This document shows positions 25,291 to 32,965 of a stretch of DNA of 64,000 nt, one piece after another. A program made the translations under genes and the position numbers. How positions within the stretch are numbered: position 1 is the stretch's first letter; every line of letters starts with the position of its first letter. The DNA is from Mycolicibacterium hassiacum DSM 44199 (lineage in GTDB: Bacteria; Actinomycetota; Actinomycetes; Mycobacteriales; Mycobacteriaceae). The notes under the pieces are model-generated. The model was not told where the DNA came from. It worked only from the letters and a program-made list of their open reading frames with translations, and ran no database searches. The stretch is from NCBI RefSeq assembly GCF_900603025.1, contig NZ_LR026975.1, forward strand, positions 4,154,001 through 4,218,000, read 5' to 3'.

Positions 25291-25354
25291 TTAACCGGCC
25301 CGCAACATCCGGCGCCTGTCTACGTAACAGAAACATTGATTACTGACAGTGAAC
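25291..25354 (+). promoter_or_regulatory. GlnR-type boxes upstream of amt
   Basis: Actinobacterial GlnR sites follow GTnAC-n6-GAAAC. Two close matches lie side by side: TCTAC-n6-GAAAC (25319-25334) and ATTAC-n6-TGAAC (25339-25354). A weaker third, TTAAC-n6-GCAAC, is at 25291-25306. All keep the AC-n9-AC spacing. They lie 36-99 bases before the amt start, a place suited to activation under nitrogen limitation. GlnR binding is inferred. Confidence 0.6.
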
Positions 25355-25389: not shown

Positions 25390-26640
25390 ATGGACACTGG
25401 GACCACAGCTTTCATGCTGAGCTGCATCATCGCGCTCACGCTGATGATCCCCGGGCTCGCGCTGTTCTACGGCGGCATGGTGTCGGTCAAGAGCTCGCTC
25501 AACATGATGATGATGACCTTCAGCGCCGCCGCCCTGGTCGGCGTCCTCTGGGTCTTGTTCGGCTTCTCGATGGTGTTCGGCACCTCGTACGGCGGCCTGA
25601 TCGGCAACGTCACCGAGTTCGCCGGCCTACGGGATCTGGCCGAGGCCATGACCACCGTCGACGGCCTTCCGGTCAGCCTGTTCGCGCTCTTCCAGGCGTT
25701 GTTCGCGGCCATCACCGTCGCCCTGGTCTCCGGCGCGGCGGCCGACCGGATGAAGTTCAGCGCCTGGATGGTGTTCGCCGGGGTGTGGGCGGTGCTGGTC
25801 TACTTCCCGGCCGCGCACTGGGTGTTCGCCTTCGACGGGGTGGTCACCGAGAACTCGGTCGGCGGCTGGATCGCCAACAAGCTCGGCGCCCTGGACTTCG
25901 CCGGTGGTACGGCGGTGCACATCAACGCCGGTGCGGCCGCGCTGGCGGTGGCGATCGTGCTCGGCAAGTCGGTCTGGTTCGGCAGCCGCAAACCGCACAA
26001 CGTCCCGCTGACGCTGCTGGGCGCGGGTCTGCTGTGGGCCGGCTGGTACGCGTTCAACGGCGGTTCGGCGCTGGCGGCCGGCACCTCGGCGTCGATCGTG
26101 ATGGTCACCACCTTCGTCTGCACCTGCTCGGCGGTGCTGGCCTGGCTGGCCGTCGAGAAGATCAAGACCGGCCACGTCACCGGTGTCGGCGCGGCATCGG
26201 GTGCCATCACCGGCCTGGTCGCGATCACCCCGGCCTGCGGTTCGGTCACCCCGGTCGGCGCGATCTTCGTCGGCCTCATCTCGGGCGCGATCTGCGTGTA
26301 CGCCGTCGGCCTCAAGGAGCGCTTCGGCTACGACGACAGCCTCGACGTGGTCGGCGTGCACCTGGTCGGCGGGTTGGTCGGCACCCTGCTGATCGGCTTC
26401 TTCGCCAGCGAGACCATGCCGGGCGGTGTCAACGGCCTGCTCTACGGCGGCGGCATCGACCAGCTGTGGCGCCAGGCGGTCGCCGCGGGTGCGGTGATGA
26501 TCTACTCCTTCGTCGTCGCCTACCTCATCGCGCTCGCCATCAAGAAGACGATGGGCATCCGCATCTCGCCCGAGGAAGAGGAACAGGGCATCGACGCCAA
26601 GTTCCACGGCGACTGGGCCTACGAGTTGCAGTCCGCCTGA
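25390..26640 (+). CDS. amt: Ammonium transporter, Amt family
   Basis: A 416-residue membrane channel that moves ammonium (and methylammonium) into the cell. The N-terminus lacks a long signal and enters the first helix at FMLSCIIALTLMIPGLALFYGG, given here in two parts with the typical PGLALFYGGMV. About eleven membrane helices follow, with the family stretches DFAGGTAVHINAGAAAL (pore His), TPACGSVTPVGA and DVVGVHLVGGLVGTLL (second pore His). The start ATG 25390 has AGGAGGTGG upstream. It lies behind GlnR-type boxes and leads the nitrogen island. No glnK follows it, so it is not the amt-glnK-glnD locus. Confidence 0.94.
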   Translation: MDTGTTAFMLSCIIALTLMIPGLALFYGGMVSVKSSLNMMMMTFSAAALVGVLWVLFGFSMVFGTSYGGLIGNVTEFAGLRDLAEAMTTVDGLPVSLFALFQALFAAITVALVSGAAADRMKFSAWMVFAGVWAVLVYFPAAHWVFAFDGVVTENSVGGWIANKLGALDFAGGTAVHINAGAAALAVAIVLGKSVWFGSRKPHNVPLTLLGAGLLWAGWYAFNGGSALAAGTSASIVMVTTFVCTCSAVLAWLAVEKIKTGHVTGVGAASGAITGLVAITPACGSVTPVGAIFVGLISGAICVYAVGLKERFGYDDSLDVVGVHLVGGLVGTLLIGFFASETMPGGVNGLLYGGGIDQLWRQAVAAGAVMIYSFVVAYLIALAIKKTMGIRISPEEEEQGIDAKFHGDWAYELQSA

Positions 26641-26651
26641 CCGCTCCCCGC

Positions 26652-26685
26652 GGCCGGCGCGGCTGCCCCCGGGCCCGCGCCGGCC
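26652..26685 (+). terminator. Strong hairpin between amt and glnT
   Basis: GGCCGGCGCGG (26652-26662) pairs perfectly with CCGCGCCGGCC (26675-26685) across a 12-base loop, 12 bases after the amt stop. It may end or reduce transcription into glnT, giving more transporter than enzyme. No T-run follows. Confidence 0.5.
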
Positions 26686-26751
26686 CACCCTCTCACGTCG
26701 AGTTTCCCCACGCGATTCACCGATTCATCAATCAAGACAAGGGTTTTCGAT

Positions 26752-28095
26752 ATGTCCACTGATCTCGCCACCGCACCGGTCAAGTCCACAGATCTGGCCA
26801 CCCTCGCCCAGGAGTCGAACACCAGGTTCATCCTGGCGCTGTTCGTCGACCTGCGCGGAAAGCCTTGCGCCAAGCTGGTTCCCGTCGAGGCCGTCGACCT
26901 GCTCGCCACCGAGGGAGTGGGCTTCGCCGGCTACGCCGTCGGCGCTATGGGCCAGGAACCCAAGGACCCCGACCTGATGGCCATGCCGGATCCGGCGTCG
27001 TTCACCCCGATCCCGTTCATCAAGGAGGGGCTGGCGATCGTGCACTGCGACCCGCACGTCGACGGCAAACCGTGGGCGTACGCGCCGCGGGTCATCCTCA
27101 AGGCGCTGATCCAGCGCGCCGCCGACGCCGGCTACGAGCCCTGGGTCGGCGCCGAGGTGGAGTACTTCCTGCTGCGCCGCACCCCCGACGGCGGGGTGTG
27201 CACCGCCGACGAGGCCGACACCGCACCGCAGCCGTGCTACGACGCGCGCGGTGTGACCCGGATGTACGACCACCTCACCGCGATCTCGACCGCGATGAAC
27301 ACGCTCGGCTGGTCGAACTACGCCAACGACCACGAGGACGCCAACGGTCAGTTCGAGCAGAACTTCGAGTTCGCCGACGCACTGACCACCGCCGACCGGG
27401 TGGTCACCCTGCGCTACCTGCTGTCGACCATCGCCGCCGAACGCGGCATGATCGCCACCTTCATGCCCAAGCCGTTCGCCGACCGCACCGGCAGCGGGCT
27501 GCACCTGCACCTGTCGCTGACCAGCGGCGGTACCCCGGTCTTCCCGGCCGGCGACGGGGTGCCCGACGAGCGCGGGCTCGGGCTGTCGGCGACCGCCTAC
27601 TCGTTCCTCGGCGGCATCCTCGAGCACGCCTGCGCGCTGCAGGCGGTGGTGGCGCCAACGGTCAACTCCTACAAGCGGACCCGCGCCACCAGCACCGCGT
27701 CGGGGGCGTCCTGGTCCCCCAACCGGCCCAGCTACGGCGGCAACGACCGCACCCACTACATCCGGGTCCCCGACGCGCAGCGCATCGAGCTGCGCGGCGG
27801 TGACGGGTCGGCCAACCCGTACCTGGCGATCGCGGCCGCGCTCGGTGCCGGCCTGGACGGCATCAAGCGCAGCGTCGACCCGGGGGCGGTCGGCGCCCAG
27901 GACCGGCCGCCGCTGCCGCCGACGCTGCTGCACGCGGTCGACGAACTCGAGACCGACCCGGTGATCTCCGGGGTGCTCGACGCGGTCGGCGAGGGGGTGG
28001 CCCGCTACTTCGCCAACCTCAAACGCGACGAGTTCTTCGCCTACCACAGCGCCGTGACGCAGTGGGAGATCGACAACTACCTGACCGCCTTCTGA
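26752..28095 (+). CDS. glnT: Type III glutamine synthetase homologue (GlnT/GmaS-like)
   Basis: A 447-residue member of the glutamine synthetase superfamily, in the branch that holds GlnT and gamma-glutamylmethylamide synthetase (GmaS). Both use ATP to join glutamate to ammonia or an amine. Landmarks are the metal/glutamate-binding GAEVEYFLLRR, NDHEDANGQFEQNF, the ATP-site GSGLHLHLSLT, TVNSYKRTRATST and the catalytic-loop ELRGGDGSANPYLA. The tyrosine adenylylated in GlnA1 is not seen. It heads a run of four closely spaced genes with the GXGXG and FMN-domain genes, the gene set of the N-methylglutamate pathway. Ammonia versus methylamine as substrate cannot be decided here. Confidence 0.85.
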   Translation: MSTDLATAPVKSTDLATLAQESNTRFILALFVDLRGKPCAKLVPVEAVDLLATEGVGFAGYAVGAMGQEPKDPDLMAMPDPASFTPIPFIKEGLAIVHCDPHVDGKPWAYAPRVILKALIQRAADAGYEPWVGAEVEYFLLRRTPDGGVCTADEADTAPQPCYDARGVTRMYDHLTAISTAMNTLGWSNYANDHEDANGQFEQNFEFADALTTADRVVTLRYLLSTIAAERGMIATFMPKPFADRTGSGLHLHLSLTSGGTPVFPAGDGVPDERGLGLSATAYSFLGGILEHACALQAVVAPTVNSYKRTRATSTASGASWSPNRPSYGGNDRTHYIRVPDAQRIELRGGDGSANPYLAIAAALGAGLDGIKRSVDPGAVGAQDRPPLPPTLLHAVDELETDPVISGVLDAVGEGVARYFANLKRDEFFAYHSAVTQWEIDNYLTAF

Positions 28096-28113
28096 CGACG
28101 AGAGGACCACGCG

Positions 28114-28986
28114 ATGTGTGGAATCGTGGGTCTGCACCTGCGCAACCCCGATCTGTATCCGCGGCTGGGTGAGCTGCTCACCGGGATGCTGTGCGAGATG
28201 GGCGAACGCGGACCGGATTCGGCGGGGGTCGCCGTCTACGGCGACCCCACCATGACCCCGCCGGGACGCGCCTGCGTGTCGGTGCTGCAGACCGAACCGC
28301 GCGCCGCCGACCTCGGCATCGACGCCACGGTGGCCCGCTACGACGAGACCTACCTGGTCACCGCCGACGTCGAATCGGCCGAACTGCTCGACGCGGTGCG
28401 CACCGCCCACCCGGACGCGGTGACCGCCGGCTTCGGCACCGATATGGCCGTGCTCAAGGGCGTCGGCCATCCCCGGGTGCTGACCGAGAGCTGGGAGCTG
28501 GCCAAGGCCCAGGGCTGGCAGGGGGTGGGCCACACCCGGATGGCCACCGAGTCGGCGGTCACCCCGGCCGGCTGCCACCCCTACGCCGTCGGCCCCGAGC
28601 AGTGCCTGGTGCACAACGGCTCGTTCTCCAACCACGCCACCATCCGGCGCGAACTGCGCGCTGCCGGTGTGCGTTTCGACAGCGAGAACGACACCGAGGT
28701 GGGTGCGCGGTTCGTGGCCAAGCAACTGGCCGACGGCGCCGACATGGAAACCGCCCTCAAACGGCTGTGCGCGGTCTTCGACGGCTTCTACACCCTGCTG
28801 GTGTCCAACCGCGACTCGTTCGCGGTGGTGCGCGACGCGATCGCGTGCAAGCCGGCGGTGATCGCCGAGACCGACGACTGGGTCGCGGTGGCCAGCGAGT
28901 ACCGCGCGCTGGCCGACCTGCCCGGGGTGTCGGCGGCCAAGATCTACGAACCCGAACCGGAGGTGGTGTACGTATGGACACGCTGA
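28114..28986 (+). CDS. Class II glutamine amidotransferase subunit (GlxB/MgsA-like)
   Basis: A 290-residue Ntn glutaminase that matches the N-terminal domain of glutamate synthase as a separate polypeptide. The nucleophile Cys2 is in MCGIVGLHLRN, and the glutaminase loops are GERGPDSAGVAVYG, WQGVGHTRMATES and CLVHNGSFSNH. It would release ammonia from glutamine, or act on gamma-glutamylmethylamide, for the FMN subunit. It starts 18 bases after glnT and its 3' end overlaps the next gene by 13 bases, so the subunits are translated together. Confidence 0.87.
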   Translation: MCGIVGLHLRNPDLYPRLGELLTGMLCEMGERGPDSAGVAVYGDPTMTPPGRACVSVLQTEPRAADLGIDATVARYDETYLVTADVESAELLDAVRTAHPDAVTAGFGTDMAVLKGVGHPRVLTESWELAKAQGWQGVGHTRMATESAVTPAGCHPYAVGPEQCLVHNGSFSNHATIRRELRAAGVRFDSENDTEVGARFVAKQLADGADMETALKRLCAVFDGFYTLLVSNRDSFAVVRDAIACKPAVIAETDDWVAVASEYRALADLPGVSAAKIYEPEPEVVYVWTR

Positions 28987-29690
28987 CCCGTCAGGCCGCC
29001 GAGCGGGCCTCGGCGACGGTCTACGACCTGGCCGCCACGCCGCTGCGCACGGTCAACGCCGCGCTGCACGCGCCGGATCTGTCCGGTGAGGTGGTGATCA
29101 CCAATCCCGCCGGCGCGCACAACGTCGCGGTCGGGGTCAACGCCCCGGTGCGGATCACCGTCGACGGCCATGTCGGCTACTACGCGGCCGGGATGAACCA
29201 GCAGGCCGAGATCGTCATCAACGGCAACGCCGGCACCGGCGTGGCCGAGAACATGATGAGCGGGTCGGTGTGGGTCAAGGGCAACGCGTCGCAGTCCGCG
29301 GGTGCGACCGCACACGGCGGGCTGCTGGTGATCGAGGGCAACGCCTCGGCGCGCTGCGGCATCTCGATGAAGGGTGTCGACATCGTCGTCGGCGGAGACA
29401 TCGGCCACATGGGCGCGTTCATGGCCCAGGCCGGCCGGCTGGTGGTGCGCGGCGACGCCGGCGACGGGCTCGGCGACTCGATCTACGAGGCCCGGCTGTA
29501 CGTGCGCGGCAACGTGGCCTCGCTGGGCGCGGACTGTATTCCCAAACCGATGCGGCCCGAACATCACCAGGAACTACGAGAGCTGTTGGCAGCGGCCGGT
29601 TTCGGTGACGACGACACGAGCGAGTACACCCGTTACGGCTCGGCCCGCAAGCTCTACCACTTCCACGTCGACAACGTAGCGAGCTACTGA
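28974..29690 (+). CDS. GXGXG-domain subunit of split glutamate-synthase-like enzyme (GlxC/MgsB-like)
   Basis: A 238-residue protein that equals the C-terminal beta-helix domain of glutamate synthase. The repeated turns are clear: INGNAGTGVAENMMSG, VKGNASQSAGATAHGG, IEGNASARCGISMKG and VVGGDIGHMGAFMAQAGRLVV (given in part). The ATG 28974 follows GGAGGTGG and overlaps the amidotransferase by 13 bases; its stop shares an A with the next start (TGATG). In full-length glutamate synthase this domain is structural and links the two active sites. It is not catalytic on its own. Confidence 0.87.
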   Translation: MDTLTRQAAERASATVYDLAATPLRTVNAALHAPDLSGEVVITNPAGAHNVAVGVNAPVRITVDGHVGYYAAGMNQQAEIVINGNAGTGVAENMMSGSVWVKGNASQSAGATAHGGLLVIEGNASARCGISMKGVDIVVGGDIGHMGAFMAQAGRLVVRGDAGDGLGDSIYEARLYVRGNVASLGADCIPKPMRPEHHQELRELLAAAGFGDDDTSEYTRYGSARKLYHFHVDNVASY

Positions 29691-31042
29691 TGAACAACAA
29701 CTGGGGACTTCGCGAATCCGCCACCTTCGACCGGTACACCATCGCGGCCATCCAGCGCGCCGCCGAGACCGGTATCTACGACATCCGCGGCTGGGGCGCC
29801 AAACGGAAGGTTCCGCACTTCGACGACCTGCTGTTCCTCGGCGCCTCGATGTCGCGCTACCCGCTGGAGGGCTACCGGGAGCGCTGCGACACCGACGTGG
29901 TGCTCGGCGACCGCTTCGCCAAACACCCTCTGCACCTTGATATCCCGATCACCATCGCGGGTATGAGCTTCGGTGCGCTGTCCGGGCAGGCCAAGGAGGC
30001 GCTGGGCCGCGGCGCCAGCGAGGTGGGCACCTCGACCACCACCGGCGACGGCGGGATGACACCCGAGGAGCGCGGTCAGAGCAAGTACCTCGTCTACCAG
30101 TACCTGCCGTCGCGCTACGGGATGAACCCCGACGACCTGCGCAAGGCCGACGCGATCGAGGTGGTGCTGGGTCAGGGCGCCAAGCCGGGCGGCGGCGGAA
30201 TGCTGTTGGGCCAGAAGATCTCCCCGCGGGTTGCCGAGATGCGCACGCTGCCGGAGGGGATCGACCAGCGTTCGGCGTGCCGGCATCCGGACTGGACCGG
30301 TCCGGACGATCTGGCCATCAAGATCCAGGAACTGCGCGAGATCACCGACTGGGAGAAGCCGATCTACGTCAAGGTGGGCGCCACCCGCACCTACTACGAC
30401 GTGAAGCTCGCCGTGCACGCGGGCGCAGATGTGGTGGTCGTCGACGGGATGCAGGGCGGCACCGCCGCCACCCAGGAGGTGTTCATAGAGCACGTCGGCA
30501 TTCCGACGCTGGCCGCGATCCCGCAGGCGGTGCAGGCGCTGCAGGAGCTCGGCGTGCACCGCACCCAGGCCAGCGGCGCCGACCGCAAGGGGGTGCAGCT
30601 GATCGTCTCCGGCGGTATCCGCACCGGCGCCGACGTCGCCAAGGCGCTGGCGCTGGGCGCGGACGCGGTCGCGATCGGTACCGCGGCGCTGATCGCGTTG
30701 GGCGACAATCATCCTCGCTATCAGGCCGAGTACGAGAAGATCGGCAGCGCGGCCGGGTTCTTCGACGACTTCCAGGACGGCCGTGATCCGGCCGGGATCA
30801 GCACCCAGGACCCGGAGCTGGCCGCCCGGCTGGATCCGGTCGAGGGCGGCCGCCGGCTGGCCAACTACCTGCGGGTGCTGACCATGGAGGCCCAGACCAT
30901 CGCCCGGGCCTGCGGCAAGGCGCACGTCTGCCATCTCGAGCCCGAGGATCTCGTCGCGGTCACCATCGAGGCCGCCGCAATGGCTCGCGTCCCGCTGGCG
31001 GGAACGGATTGGATTCCCGGTCAAGGGAATTCGGGCTGGTGA
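29690..31042 (+). CDS. FMN-binding glutamate-synthase family subunit (GlxD/MgsC-like)
   Basis: A 450-residue FMN TIM-barrel protein that corresponds to the central synthase domain of GltB, as a separate subunit. Landmarks are PITIAGMSFGALSGQAKEAL, STTTGDGGMTPEER, YVKVGATRTYYDVK, DGMQGGTAATQ, IVSGGIRTGADVAKALALGA and AIGTAALIALG. Iron-sulfur cysteines are expected in this family: RSACRHPDW, RACGKAHVCHLE hold likely ligands. With the two upstream genes it forms a three-subunit glutamate synthase-like enzyme. In methylamine users the same three genes make N-methylglutamate synthase. Confidence 0.88.
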   Translation: MNNNWGLRESATFDRYTIAAIQRAAETGIYDIRGWGAKRKVPHFDDLLFLGASMSRYPLEGYRERCDTDVVLGDRFAKHPLHLDIPITIAGMSFGALSGQAKEALGRGASEVGTSTTTGDGGMTPEERGQSKYLVYQYLPSRYGMNPDDLRKADAIEVVLGQGAKPGGGGMLLGQKISPRVAEMRTLPEGIDQRSACRHPDWTGPDDLAIKIQELREITDWEKPIYVKVGATRTYYDVKLAVHAGADVVVVDGMQGGTAATQEVFIEHVGIPTLAAIPQAVQALQELGVHRTQASGADRKGVQLIVSGGIRTGADVAKALALGADAVAIGTAALIALGDNHPRYQAEYEKIGSAAGFFDDFQDGRDPAGISTQDPELAARLDPVEGGRRLANYLRVLTMEAQTIARACGKAHVCHLEPEDLVAVTIEAAAMARVPLAGTDWIPGQGNSGW

Positions 31043-31091
31043 GCAGCGGTCGGAGTCGCAGCCGGTTTCGTGGACAAGGAGTCTTGACAGG

Positions 31092-32279
31092 ATGAGCAGC
31101 ACAGCGGATGTGGTGATCGTCGGCGGCGGCATCGAGGGCACCGCGGCGGCGTGGGCGCTGTCCCAACGGGGCATCACCGACGTCGTCGTCCTCGAACGCG
31201 ACACCGTCGGCTCGGGGATGACCGGCAAGTCCAGCGGGATCGTCCGGTGCCACTACGGGGTCAGCTCGCTGGCCGCGATGGCCACCGTCGGGCTCGAGGT
31301 GTTCGAGAAGGCCGAGGAGATCTTCGGCACCGACATCGGGTTCCGCCAGACCGGCTACGTGGTCGGGGTCGGCGAGCAGAACGTCGACGCGCTGCGCAAG
31401 AGCCTGGCCGCCCAGCGGGCGGTCGGCGTGCAGACCGAGGAGATCGACAAGTCCGAGGTGGCCAGGATGTGGCCGCAGGCCGATCTGAGCCCGTTCGCGG
31501 CGTTCGGCTGGGAGGCGCGCGGCGGGTACGGCGACGCCTACCTGACCGCGCAGGCGTTCGCCGCGTCGGCGCGCGCGGCGGGGGTGCGGATCCGCCAGGG
31601 CGCGACGGTGACCGGGCTGGTCTGCGACGGGGACCGGGTCTGCGGGGTGCGGCTGGCCGACGGCACCGAGGTCAGCGCCGGGACCGTGGTGGTGGCCACC
31701 GGGGTGTGGACCAAACCGTTGCTGGCCCCCTACGGCGTCGACGTGCCGATCCGGGTGGTGCGCGAACAGATCGTGCTGATCGATCCGGGCATGGAGGTCG
31801 GTGCGGTGCCGGTGTTCTCCGACCTGGTGTCGCTGCAGTACATCCGCCCCGAGGTGGGCGGCGAGATCCTGTTCGGCAACAGCGACCTGTCTGACTCGTG
31901 CGAGGCCGACCCGGACAACTACCTCAACCGCGCCGACGAGGAGTTCATCGACCTGACCGTGGAGCGGGTCAGCACCCGGTTCCCCGGCTTCGAGAACGCG
32001 GCGATCAGCAGCAGCTATGCCGGCTGCTACGACGCCACCCCGGACTGGAACCCGGTGATCTCGGCGACCGGGCTGGACGGGTTGTTCGTGGCGGCCGGGT
32101 TCAGCGGCCACGGGTTCAAGATCGCCCCGGCGGTCGGACGGCTGGTGGCCGATCTGGTGGTCGACGGGCGCAGCAGCGACCCGCGCATCCCGGAGACCGA
32201 TTTCCGGCTGTCGCGGTTCGCCGAGGGCAAGCTGTTGACCAGCCCGTACCCTTATGTCGGTGCCGGGCAGATGCGGTGA
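31092..32279 (+). CDS. FAD-dependent oxidoreductase, SoxB/DAO family
   Basis: A 395-residue flavoprotein that resembles the beta subunit of sarcosine oxidase and of N-methylglutamate dehydrogenase. The FAD dinucleotide fold is at the N-terminus (ADVVIVGGGIEGTAAAWAL) with VVVLERDTVGSGMTGKSSGI. Later come VVVATGVWTKPLL and the closing GLFVAAGFSGHGFKIAPAVG, the FAD-contact region. The other three subunits of the heterotetrameric enzymes (alpha, gamma, delta) are absent. It lies 49 bases after the FMN subunit gene, so it is probably in the same transcript. Likely substrate is a secondary or tertiary amine such as N-methyl-amino acid; this is inferred from family and neighbours. Confidence 0.8.
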   Translation: MSSTADVVIVGGGIEGTAAAWALSQRGITDVVVLERDTVGSGMTGKSSGIVRCHYGVSSLAAMATVGLEVFEKAEEIFGTDIGFRQTGYVVGVGEQNVDALRKSLAAQRAVGVQTEEIDKSEVARMWPQADLSPFAAFGWEARGGYGDAYLTAQAFAASARAAGVRIRQGATVTGLVCDGDRVCGVRLADGTEVSAGTVVVATGVWTKPLLAPYGVDVPIRVVREQIVLIDPGMEVGAVPVFSDLVSLQYIRPEVGGEILFGNSDLSDSCEADPDNYLNRADEEFIDLTVERVSTRFPGFENAAISSSYAGCYDATPDWNPVISATGLDGLFVAAGFSGHGFKIAPAVGRLVADLVVDGRSSDPRIPETDFRLSRFAEGKLLTSPYPYVGAGQMR

Positions 32280-32317
32280 CACCCAGATGAGCTGACGCCC
32301 TGCCACCATGACTGACT

Positions 32318-32965
32318 ATGGCTGAGGAACCGCTGCTCCGTAACCGATCCGGCACCGCCCGCGATCGCGACCCTCAGGCGCCGGTCGAGGAGCTCGAGAT
32401 CGAGGCGGCCATCGGGCGAAACGTGCGCCAGCTGCGCCTGCAGCACGGGCTCACCGTCGCCGAGATGGCCGCCCGGATCGGCATTTCCAAAGCCATGATG
32501 AGCAAGATCGAGAACGCCCAGACGTCGTGCAGCCTGTCGACGCTGGCGCTGCTGGCCAAGGGCTTCGATGTGCCGGTCACCAGCCTGTTCCGCGGCGCCG
32601 ACGTGCAGCGCCCGGCGTCCTTCGTCAAGGCCGGCGAAGGGCCGCGCATCGTGCGGGCGGGCAGCCGCGAGGGCCACGAGTACCAGATGCTGGGCAGCCT
32701 GCGCGGTGAGCACCGCCGGTTGGAGAGCCTGCTGGTCACGCTCAGCCACAAGAGCCAGACCTACCCGCTGTTCCAGCACCCCGGCACCGAGTTCATCTAC
32801 ATGCTCGAAGGGGTGATGGACTACAGCCACAGCCGCACGGTGTACCGGCTGCACCCGGGGGATTCGCTGCAGTTCGACGGGGAGGGGGCACACGGACCGG
32901 TGGACCTCATCGAGGTGCCGATCCGGTTCCTGTCGGTGATCGCGTTCCCCGACTCGTATGTGTGA
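32318..32965 (+). CDS. XRE family regulator with C-terminal cupin domain
   Basis: A 215-residue regulator. Residues about 25-85 form an XRE-type helix-turn-helix (VRQLRLQHGLTVAEMAARIG, then SKAMMSKIENAQTSCSLSTL in contact with DNA). Residues about 130-205 form a cupin barrel (YPLFQHPGTEFIYMLEGVM, VYRLHPGDSLQFDGEGAHGP) that may bind a small ligand or metal. XRE-cupin proteins often regulate amine, amino-acid or polyamine catabolism. It lies 38 bases after the flavoenzyme and ends the nitrogen island, so it is a likely local regulator of it. Confidence 0.85.
   Translation: MAEEPLLRNRSGTARDRDPQAPVEELEIEAAIGRNVRQLRLQHGLTVAEMAARIGISKAMMSKIENAQTSCSLSTLALLAKGFDVPVTSLFRGADVQRPASFVKAGEGPRIVRAGSREGHEYQMLGSLRGEHRRLESLLVTLSHKSQTYPLFQHPGTEFIYMLEGVMDYSHSRTVYRLHPGDSLQFDGEGAHGPVDLIEVPIRFLSVIAFPDSYV

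Follow-up and report, generated by a model that had tools for sequence, protein, structure and literature searches.

A gene block of Mycolicibacterium hassiacum with a GmaS-type GlnT and a lone flavoenzyme: a putative N-methylglutamate-type route for methylamine

The N-methylglutamate pathway is encoded, according to the available part of PMC3160333, by gmaS-mgsABC-mgdABCD in Methyloversatilis and by glnT-glxBCD-soxBDAG in SAR11. For methylated-amine-using mycobacteria, the accessible portion of PMC5023230 (Mycobacterium sp. 141/155) proposes that Gma and MgsABC act on methylamine, and attributes the dehydrogenase step to MgdABCD, encoded far away from them. In M. smegmatis, msmeg_6259-6264 form an amt1-glnT operon of the GlnR regulon, presented as nitrogen-stress genes; the available portions of PMC3662644 and PMC4222082 contain no methylamine reading of it. 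A literature search, mostly at the level of titles and abstracts, returned no lone flavoenzyme described as an N-methylglutamate dehydrogenase.

The locus described here is located in a window of 64,000 nucleotides from M. hassiacum DSM 44199, the whole stretch that was analysed, to which all positions refer. It shares with the N-methylglutamate pathway a GmaS-type GlnT and a three-gene synthase with the same domains; where the pathway has a heterotetrameric dehydrogenase, it features instead a single, non-orthologous flavoenzyme. With Mycobacterium sp. 141/155 it has the proposed Gma and MgsABC functions in common; the dehydrogenase published for those mycobacteria, MgdABCD, is a different one. 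The annotated gene order is that of the M. smegmatis operon, and the two flavoenzymes are 85% identical (P0055).

Gene content, order and upstream boxes

Seven genes, all with open frames and on the + strand, occupy positions 25390-32965, with ask-asd on one side and leuA on the other. The first, amt (25390..26640), encodes an ammonium transporter (PF00909 Ammonium_transp, 373 bits; TIGR00836, 413 bits), which may also carry methylammonium. It is followed, after 111 bases, by glnT (26752..28095), whose product scores 616 bits against the type III glutamine synthetase profile TIGR03105 (cut-off 470), and is predicted, by its residue pattern and tree position, to be a GmaS-type gamma-glutamylamide synthetase. 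Eighteen bases further, an amidotransferase subunit with Cys2 present (MgsA/GlxB-like; 28114..28986; GATase_6/7) overlaps glxC, the GXGXG subunit (MgsB/GlxC-like; 28974..29690), which matches PF01493 weakly (33.3 bits, cut-off 32.5); for this gene the ATG at 28974 (238 aa) is the preferred start, and the profile scans used the TTG at 28983. One base is shared by glxC and glxD, the FMN subunit with a glutamate synthase domain (MgsC/GlxD-like; 29690..31042; PF01645 Glu_synthase, 296 bits). The three synthase domains are those of the sox-linked loci L012, L014, L015 and L072; a GltD-like electron donor subunit is absent from the block. After 49 bases comes the lone DAO-type flavoenzyme (31092..32279; DAO, 232 bits), a putative N-methylglutamate oxidase or dehydrogenase, and after a further 38 an XRE-cupin regulator (32318..32965; HTH_3 and Cupin_2), weakly PuuR-like (41 bits, cut-off 211). 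An earlier note had read this gene set, in one block with short gaps or overlaps, from the letters: gene calls and Pfam and NCBIfam profiles bear it out. The block is no chance neighbourhood, since the gene set recurs in other mycobacteria, in Gordonia and in other Mycobacteriales genomes.

Two GlnR-type boxes on the + strand, TTAAC-n6-GCAACA (25291..25307) and TCTAC-n6-GAAACA (25319..25335), precede amt. Both match the form nnnAC-n6-GnAACA, the M. smegmatis GlnR motif as given in the available part of PMC3662644. Of 72 stretches of 160 bp upstream of amt, 61 contain at least one such box, against a letter-shuffle mean of 0.79, and 38 contain two. The M. smegmatis counterpart operon is a member of the GlnR regulon, according to the same portions of PMC3662644 and PMC4222082; we infer that GlnR may control the block in M. 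hassiacum as well.

Active-site residues and tree position of GlnT

The catalytic and methylamine-site residues of Rhodovulum GmaS (PMC7948447) were used as reference. GlnT carries nine of the ten (Lys30, Ala48, Tyr147, Asp177, Glu179, Glu186, Asn188, Trp300, Arg312), and these are kept in all 120 class A GlnT rows compared. The tenth, Gln175, belongs to the methylamine pocket; every class A row has Ala there, which counts against a methylamine reading. The same Ala is found in L072, a locus with canonical soxB-D-A genes. Glutamine synthetases feature an ammonium-site Asp and a flap Glu (PMC7948447): at these positions GlnT has Ala48 and Trp300, and is devoid of both marks of an ammonia-using enzyme. 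In the midpoint-rooted tree, class A has as its neighbour an actinobacterial locus that carries soxB-D-A, beyond which Rhodovulum GmaS, Rhizobium and Paracoccus come as a group (support 99/96 and 97/93). Support is 91/74 at the node uniting the GmaS-type rows as a whole, the program warned of long branches meeting at several joins, and no type III GlnT proven by biochemistry to use ammonia is among the rows. Tree position and nine of the ten residues, both at the level of sequence, mark GlnT as being of the GmaS type.

Class A leaves out G067, whose GlnT is solely of class B, and G194, which has 51% identity and a soxB-D-A locus; L177, with 288 residues, was removed from the GlnT set. Class B GlnT shares about 40% identity and was treated as a different system: tblastn gave no glx match in 20 of 20 loci, some of the stretches being short.

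Distribution and relationships of the lone flavoenzyme

Of the 198 Mycobacterium genomes sampled, 84 have class A GlnT. In 83 of these it is accompanied by the flavoenzyme, which is found in none of the other 114; in the one exception, G041, glnT is near a contig end. Among 135 flavoenzyme loci, 127 have glnT inside the stretch examined; these counts are not independent, loci partly overlapping (e.g. L074/L112) and L081 and L083 being near-copies at this site.

The conventional alternative is a split glutamine synthetase/glutamate synthase module that handles ammonium in nitrogen-starved cells, the flavoenzyme being a mere passenger. Such a module would fit an operon that includes amt and that, in the available portions of PMC3662644 and PMC4222082, belongs to the M. 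smegmatis GlnR regulon. It is made less likely by the flavoenzyme's presence in 83 of 84 genomes, by the Ala and Trp of GlnT in place of Asp and Glu (PMC7948447), and by the pairing of relatives of the block with dimethylamine genes; the missing GltD-like subunit also argues against it, and we regard it as very unlikely. Hardly any more probable is a flavoenzyme that has a different N-methyl amino acid as its substrate and shares the regulation of the glnT-glxBCD route without being a step in it. G478 and G429, where it occurs with no GlnT match at E <= 1e-70, and G063, G462, G222 and G231, where HODM or dmmAB-like genes are its neighbours and glnT is not, speak for this, against which stands the high proportion of flavoenzyme loci that include glnT.

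The label "SoxB-like", given in the earlier note, is apt as to likeness (151 bits against TIGR01373, soxB), but the score is far under the cut-off of 529. The gene content of the block confirms that alpha, gamma and delta partners are missing, and no heterotetrameric MgdABCD dehydrogenase is encoded in it. The derived view of the dehydrogenase as a SoxB subunit that has lost its partners is ruled out: the histidine for covalent FMN, His in 4 of 4 SoxB/MgdB/TSOX rows, is Ala in all 40 lone rows, 34 of them actinobacterial and 6 betaproteobacterial, and in the tree, for which a long-branch warning was given, the lone enzyme is not part of the SoxB/MgdB/TSOX clade. The lone enzymes of actinobacteria and of Betaproteobacteria are not joined there. 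A branch separates the actinobacterial rows from all others in only 60% of the bootstrap trees, because the long row L200 comes to lie among them. Arg52 and Lys343 are conserved in both lone and SoxB groups. The best solved relatives by sequence, the beta subunit of heterotetrameric sarcosine oxidase (2gag_B) and 1y56_B, belong likewise to the DAO superfamily, but score low (113 and 147 bits), and the flavoenzyme has no TSOX FMN-histidine; its AlphaFold model, built on an alignment of 18 close relatives, is poor (mean pLDDT 53.5). A search for SoxD (TIGR01374), which matched 5 of 30 genomes, gave no match in the M. hassiacum genome. SoxD match and lone-flavoenzyme block coexist in G031, G019, G157 and G087, where a four-subunit enzyme may therefore exist.

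Neighbouring genes and the proposed pathway

Genes for HODM, a haem-dependent dimethylamine demethylase, are beside the block in every Gordonia locus, 11 in number, of the 80 named loci, and also in L074, L076, L080, L081, L083 and L085. In L074/L112, L075, L081 and L083 an mscR-type gene, for a mycothiol-type formaldehyde dehydrogenase, follows the flavoenzyme on the same strand at about 100 bases or less (650 bits against TIGR03451 in L083, cut-off 513). In M. hassiacum, consecutive dmmA-like, dmmB-like and HODM genes, as well as mscR with an MBL-fold gene, are found away from the block. By raw counts, kinship ignored, 49 of the 84 class A genomes have HODM (PF11927), and 9 of the 114 others. 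Three observations count against the pathway proposed below: at 84 ask/leuA-site loci, no HODM, dmmAB or mscR query match falls within the stretch examined; 35 class A genomes have no PF11927 match; and 9 of the other genomes do have one.

The block probably encodes a nitrogen-starvation-induced pathway of the N-methylglutamate type for methylamine, in which a single non-orthologous flavoenzyme would replace the tetrahydrofolate-linked, four-subunit MgdABCD and release formaldehyde. Reactions, substrates, products and the electron acceptor are proposed from gene content, conservation, residues and neighbourhoods. Methylamine would be taken up directly, Amt importing (methyl)ammonium, or be made in the cell from dimethylamine; GlnT would join it to glutamate, with ATP, giving gamma-glutamylmethylamide; GlxBCD would act as a split N-methylglutamate synthase; the flavoenzyme would convert N-methylglutamate to glutamate and formaldehyde, to be removed by the cell's mycothiol-dependent formaldehyde dehydrogenase. 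The N-methylglutamate-type reading of the earlier note is supported by the GmaS-type site and tree and by the demethylase and formaldehyde dehydrogenase neighbours, and loses its orphan SoxB subunit. If the proposal is true, an operon listed among the ammonium and glutamine genes of the mycobacterial nitrogen-stress response is a scavenging route for methylated amines, a single-subunit, non-orthologous N-methylglutamate oxidase or dehydrogenase is named, and genome scans for mgdABCD would overlook such methylamine users.

Against methylamine as substrate, M. smegmatis, with the same operon, does not grow on 10 mM methylamine, and grows on ethanolamine GlnR-dependently, according to the available part of PMC4222082. 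The negative is not decisive, because in the same portion of that report growth on urea is negative too, despite urease activity. The same chemistry might serve a larger primary amine (ethanolamine, ethylamine), GlnT, GlxBCD and the flavoenzyme leading through an N-alkylglutamate to an aldehyde. The ethanolamine phenotype, eutB near the block in three loci (L076, L080, L085), the Ala175 of the pocket and the absence of a tetrahydrofolate-binding subunit, which fits an aldehyde other than formaldehyde, are in favour of it. Yet ethanolamine ammonia-lyase is a separate route, Ala175 coexists with canonical soxB-D-A genes in L072, Gordonia and several mycobacteria have HODM genes on the flanks of the block, and in four genomes the next gene after the flavoenzyme is one for a formaldehyde dehydrogenase: a larger amine is, on balance, unlikely.

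A formaldehyde-free variant of the methylamine pathway, of rather low probability, would have the flavoenzyme family perform a four-electron oxidation of N-methylglutamate to N-formylglutamate, to be split by an amidohydrolase into formate and glutamate. Unrelated amidohydrolases, both mostly with HutD, are in fact beside two flavoenzyme branches: the N-formylglutamate deformylase HutG in Betaproteobacteria, and an M20 enzyme of allantoate/N-carbamoyl type in some actinobacteria. In the betaproteobacterial loci L010, L011 and L013, a lone FAD oxidoreductase, about 33-35% identical, is near XRE and glnT-glxBCD genes, with HutD and hutG; unlike the mycobacterial enzyme, it has the deformylase gene adjacent, is on a separate tree branch, and is accompanied by ETF genes in L010 and L013. 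LLM monooxygenase, flavin reductase and aldehyde dehydrogenase genes adjoin in L010 and L011; a literature search listed no paper that assigns them to the trigonelline pathway, to which they may belong.

The gene block and its genomic site

Seven open genes, all on the + strand, fill positions 25390-32965 of the window: amt (416 aa), glnT (447 aa), an amidotransferase gene (290 aa), glxC (GXGXG; 238 aa from the ATG at 28974), glxD (FMN; 450 aa), a DAO flavoenzyme gene (395 aa) and an XRE-cupin regulator gene (215 aa). The block is best read, with moderate confidence, as an N-methylglutamate pathway of a novel form, the reactions of which we infer.

The block is flanked by asd-ask (- strand) on one side and by leuA on the other. 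In seven out of eight sampled mycobacterial genomes devoid of it, a distance of 0.35-3.5 kb, with no block, separates ask from leuA; the remaining genome showed no leuA within 8 kb. Hence either the block was inserted here as an accessory element, or it has been lost from this site. In Candidatus Mycobacterium methanotrophicum (L009, NZ_CP097321.1) a glnT-glxBCD-flavoenzyme set is plasmid-borne, with an integrase gene nearby.

A GlnT of the window's type (class A) is present in 84 of 198 Mycobacterium genomes: 83 of these 84 (the miss is G041), versus none of the other 114, contain the flavoenzyme at E <= 1e-100. Throughout Mycobacteriales, the flavoenzyme is matched at E <= 1e-80 in 29 out of 348 genomes and 12 out of 79 genera. 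Among 14 such genomes from outside Mycobacterium, glnT-glxBCD is found in the retrieved stretch in nine, a GlnT match lies elsewhere in three (one partial), and two have none at E <= 1e-70. At the level of loci, where some genomes are counted twice, 135 of the 137 examined contain the flavoenzyme, accompanied by glnT in 127.

The synthetase and the flavoenzyme

In Rhodovulum GmaS, according to the available text of PMC7948447, the methylamine pocket comprises Lys30', Tyr147, Gln175, Asp177, Glu179, Glu186 and Asn188, Arg312 is catalytic, while Ala48 and Trp300 replace the ammonium-site Asp and the flap Glu of glutamine synthetase. Nine of these ten residues are kept in the window GlnT, the exception being Gln175, replaced by Ala; this pattern is common to all 120 class A rows compared, including that of L072, a locus carrying soxB-D-A genes. 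Position 175 is Gln in two solved GmaS and in six proteobacterial GlnT, eight rows in all; the 20 rows of class B are unlike GmaS at three sites. In a tree of 59 rows, class A joins L072 (99/96), then RhGmaS together with Rhizobium and Paracoccus (97/93), then 9qur, Acinetobacter and betaproteobacterial rows (91/74), with a program warning of long branches that meet at these nodes; class B falls outside the last node. Judged by residues and by tree placement, the latter with its long-branch warning, GlnT, which the earlier note had put in the GlnT/GmaS branch, is of the GmaS type. A second class of GmaS-like synthetases, with a Ser175/Asp188 pattern, occurs in the window's genome (L006, C1:133818-134831) and in L047-L066, with no glx genes in the retrieved stretches.

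The flavoenzyme had been taken for a lone SoxB-like subunit. SoxD (TIGR01374) has no match in the window's genome; the same search matched in 5 of 30 genomes, and is therefore able to detect SoxD. Four of these five (G031, G019, G157, G087) also contain a lone-flavoenzyme block. The SoxB identity does not stand: the protein scores 151 bits against TIGR01373 (cut-off 529), and SoxB/MgdB/TSOX form a separate clade in the flavoenzyme tree (100/100). The position of the FMN-histidine in heterotetrameric sarcosine oxidase holds His in TSOX and three sox-linked SoxB/MgdB proteins, and Ala in every lone flavoenzyme compared, 34 of them actinobacterial and 6 betaproteobacterial (40 of 40). By these features, the window flavoenzyme is no SoxB subunit left without partners. 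The tree leaves the lone enzymes of actinobacteria and betaproteobacteria unjoined, and a long row, L200, falls among the actinobacterial ones. Arg52 and Lys343, presumably akin to the two residues that bind the carboxylate in monomeric sarcosine oxidase, are invariant across the lone and SoxB groups.

Neighbouring genes

Named loci are taken from the best 80 of 278 relatives. In all 11 Gordonia loci among these, genes for a haem-dependent oxidative N-demethylase (HODM) and a DmmB-like protein lie upstream of amt-glnT-glxBCD-flavoenzyme-xre; the flavoenzymes are 76-81% identical to the window's. HODM genes also flank the block in L074, L076, L080, L081, L083 and L085. In L083 the flavoenzyme is followed by two genes, the first for an S-(hydroxymethyl)mycothiol dehydrogenase (TIGR03451, 650 bits, cut-off 513), the second for an MBL-fold protein; an mscR-type gene, for such a formaldehyde dehydrogenase, is directly 3' of the flavoenzyme also in L074/L112 (one genome), L075 and L081 (a near-copy of L083). 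These neighbourhoods point to methylated amines. Ruegeria DmmABC, expressed in E. coli, is reported to convert dimethylamine to methylamine 1:1 (PMC5520151, available text). Three consecutive genes of the window's genome, at about C1:1285360-1287799, are dmmA-like (56%), dmmB-like (67%) and HODM (66%), and the genome also has mscR with an MBL gene at C1:1542573-1544269; on paper, it could therefore form methylamine from dimethylamine and remove formaldehyde.

A different product may be formed in other branches. In one branch of the lone flavoenzyme (about 52% identity), ten loci (L069-L071, L078, L082, L213-L217) have, next to the flavoenzyme, an M20 amidohydrolase of allantoate/N-carbamoyl type; two of these proteins score 566 and 578 bits against NF006770, allantoate amidohydrolase (cut-off 372). 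Seven of these ten loci (G035, G152, G154, G261, G415, G478, G502) also have a HutD match adjoining the flavoenzyme. In three betaproteobacterial plasmids, hutG (in L010 TIGR02017, 349 bits) and HutD adjoin the lone flavoenzyme, two of them also featuring ETF genes. Since two unrelated amidohydrolases occupy the same place, an N-acylglutamate intermediate, most simply N-formylglutamate, is suggested for these branches. HutD has no match in the window's genome, so that formaldehyde release is the first choice for the window block.

L010 and L011 share, beside the betaproteobacterial block, LLM monooxygenase, flavin reductase, aldehyde dehydrogenase and hydrolase genes, a set reminiscent of trigonelline breakdown. 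Paraburkholderia phymatum (L203) carries a lone flavoenzyme with ETF and N-formylglutamate amidohydrolase genes, and no annotated glnT in the retrieved stretch.

Putative GlnR control and the candidate amine

Two GlnR-type boxes (nnnAC-n6-GnAACA) start at 25291 and 25319, upstream of amt. Among 72 related amt upstream regions, 61 contain at least one box, 38 two and 11 none; in letter shuffles, a mean of 0.79 of the 72 regions (maximum 4) contain a box. For M. smegmatis, the available texts report the GlnR motif with a ChIP-seq peak at amt1, msmeg_6259 (PMC3662644), and GlnR-dependence of msmeg_6259-6264, annotated, in numerical order, as ammonium transporter, glnT, glutamine amidotransferase, FwdC/FmdC family, glutamate synthase family and oxidoreductase (PMC4222082). 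This order agrees with that of the block, and the M. smegmatis flavoenzyme (P0055) is 85% identical to the window's.

In the available text of PMC4222082, 10 mM methylamine, offered as the sole nitrogen source, did not support growth of M. smegmatis SMR5. This negative result, the only direct test found in the literature as far as available, is not decisive, because growth on urea also failed although urease was active. Also against methylamine, HODM, dmmAB and mscR queries have no match in the retrieved stretches of the 84 flavoenzyme loci, out of 135, at the ask/leuA site; HODM or dmmAB-like genes accompany 27 of the other 51. PF11927 (HODM) is matched in 49 of the 84 class A Mycobacterium genomes, with no match in 35, versus 9 of the other 114 (Fisher p 6e-15, kinship ignored); the 35 without and the 9 with a match speak against methylamine.

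The same text reports that ethanolamine gave GlnR-dependent growth of SMR5. A reading of the block as serving ethanolamine stays alive, because eutB lies near it in L076, L080 and L085, three mycobacterial loci with ethanolamine ammonia-lyase genes close to the block. Mycobacterium sp. 141 and 155 are described in the available text of PMC5023230 as facultative users of methylated amines; they have a Gma-MgsABC island, with MgdABCD at a distant locus.
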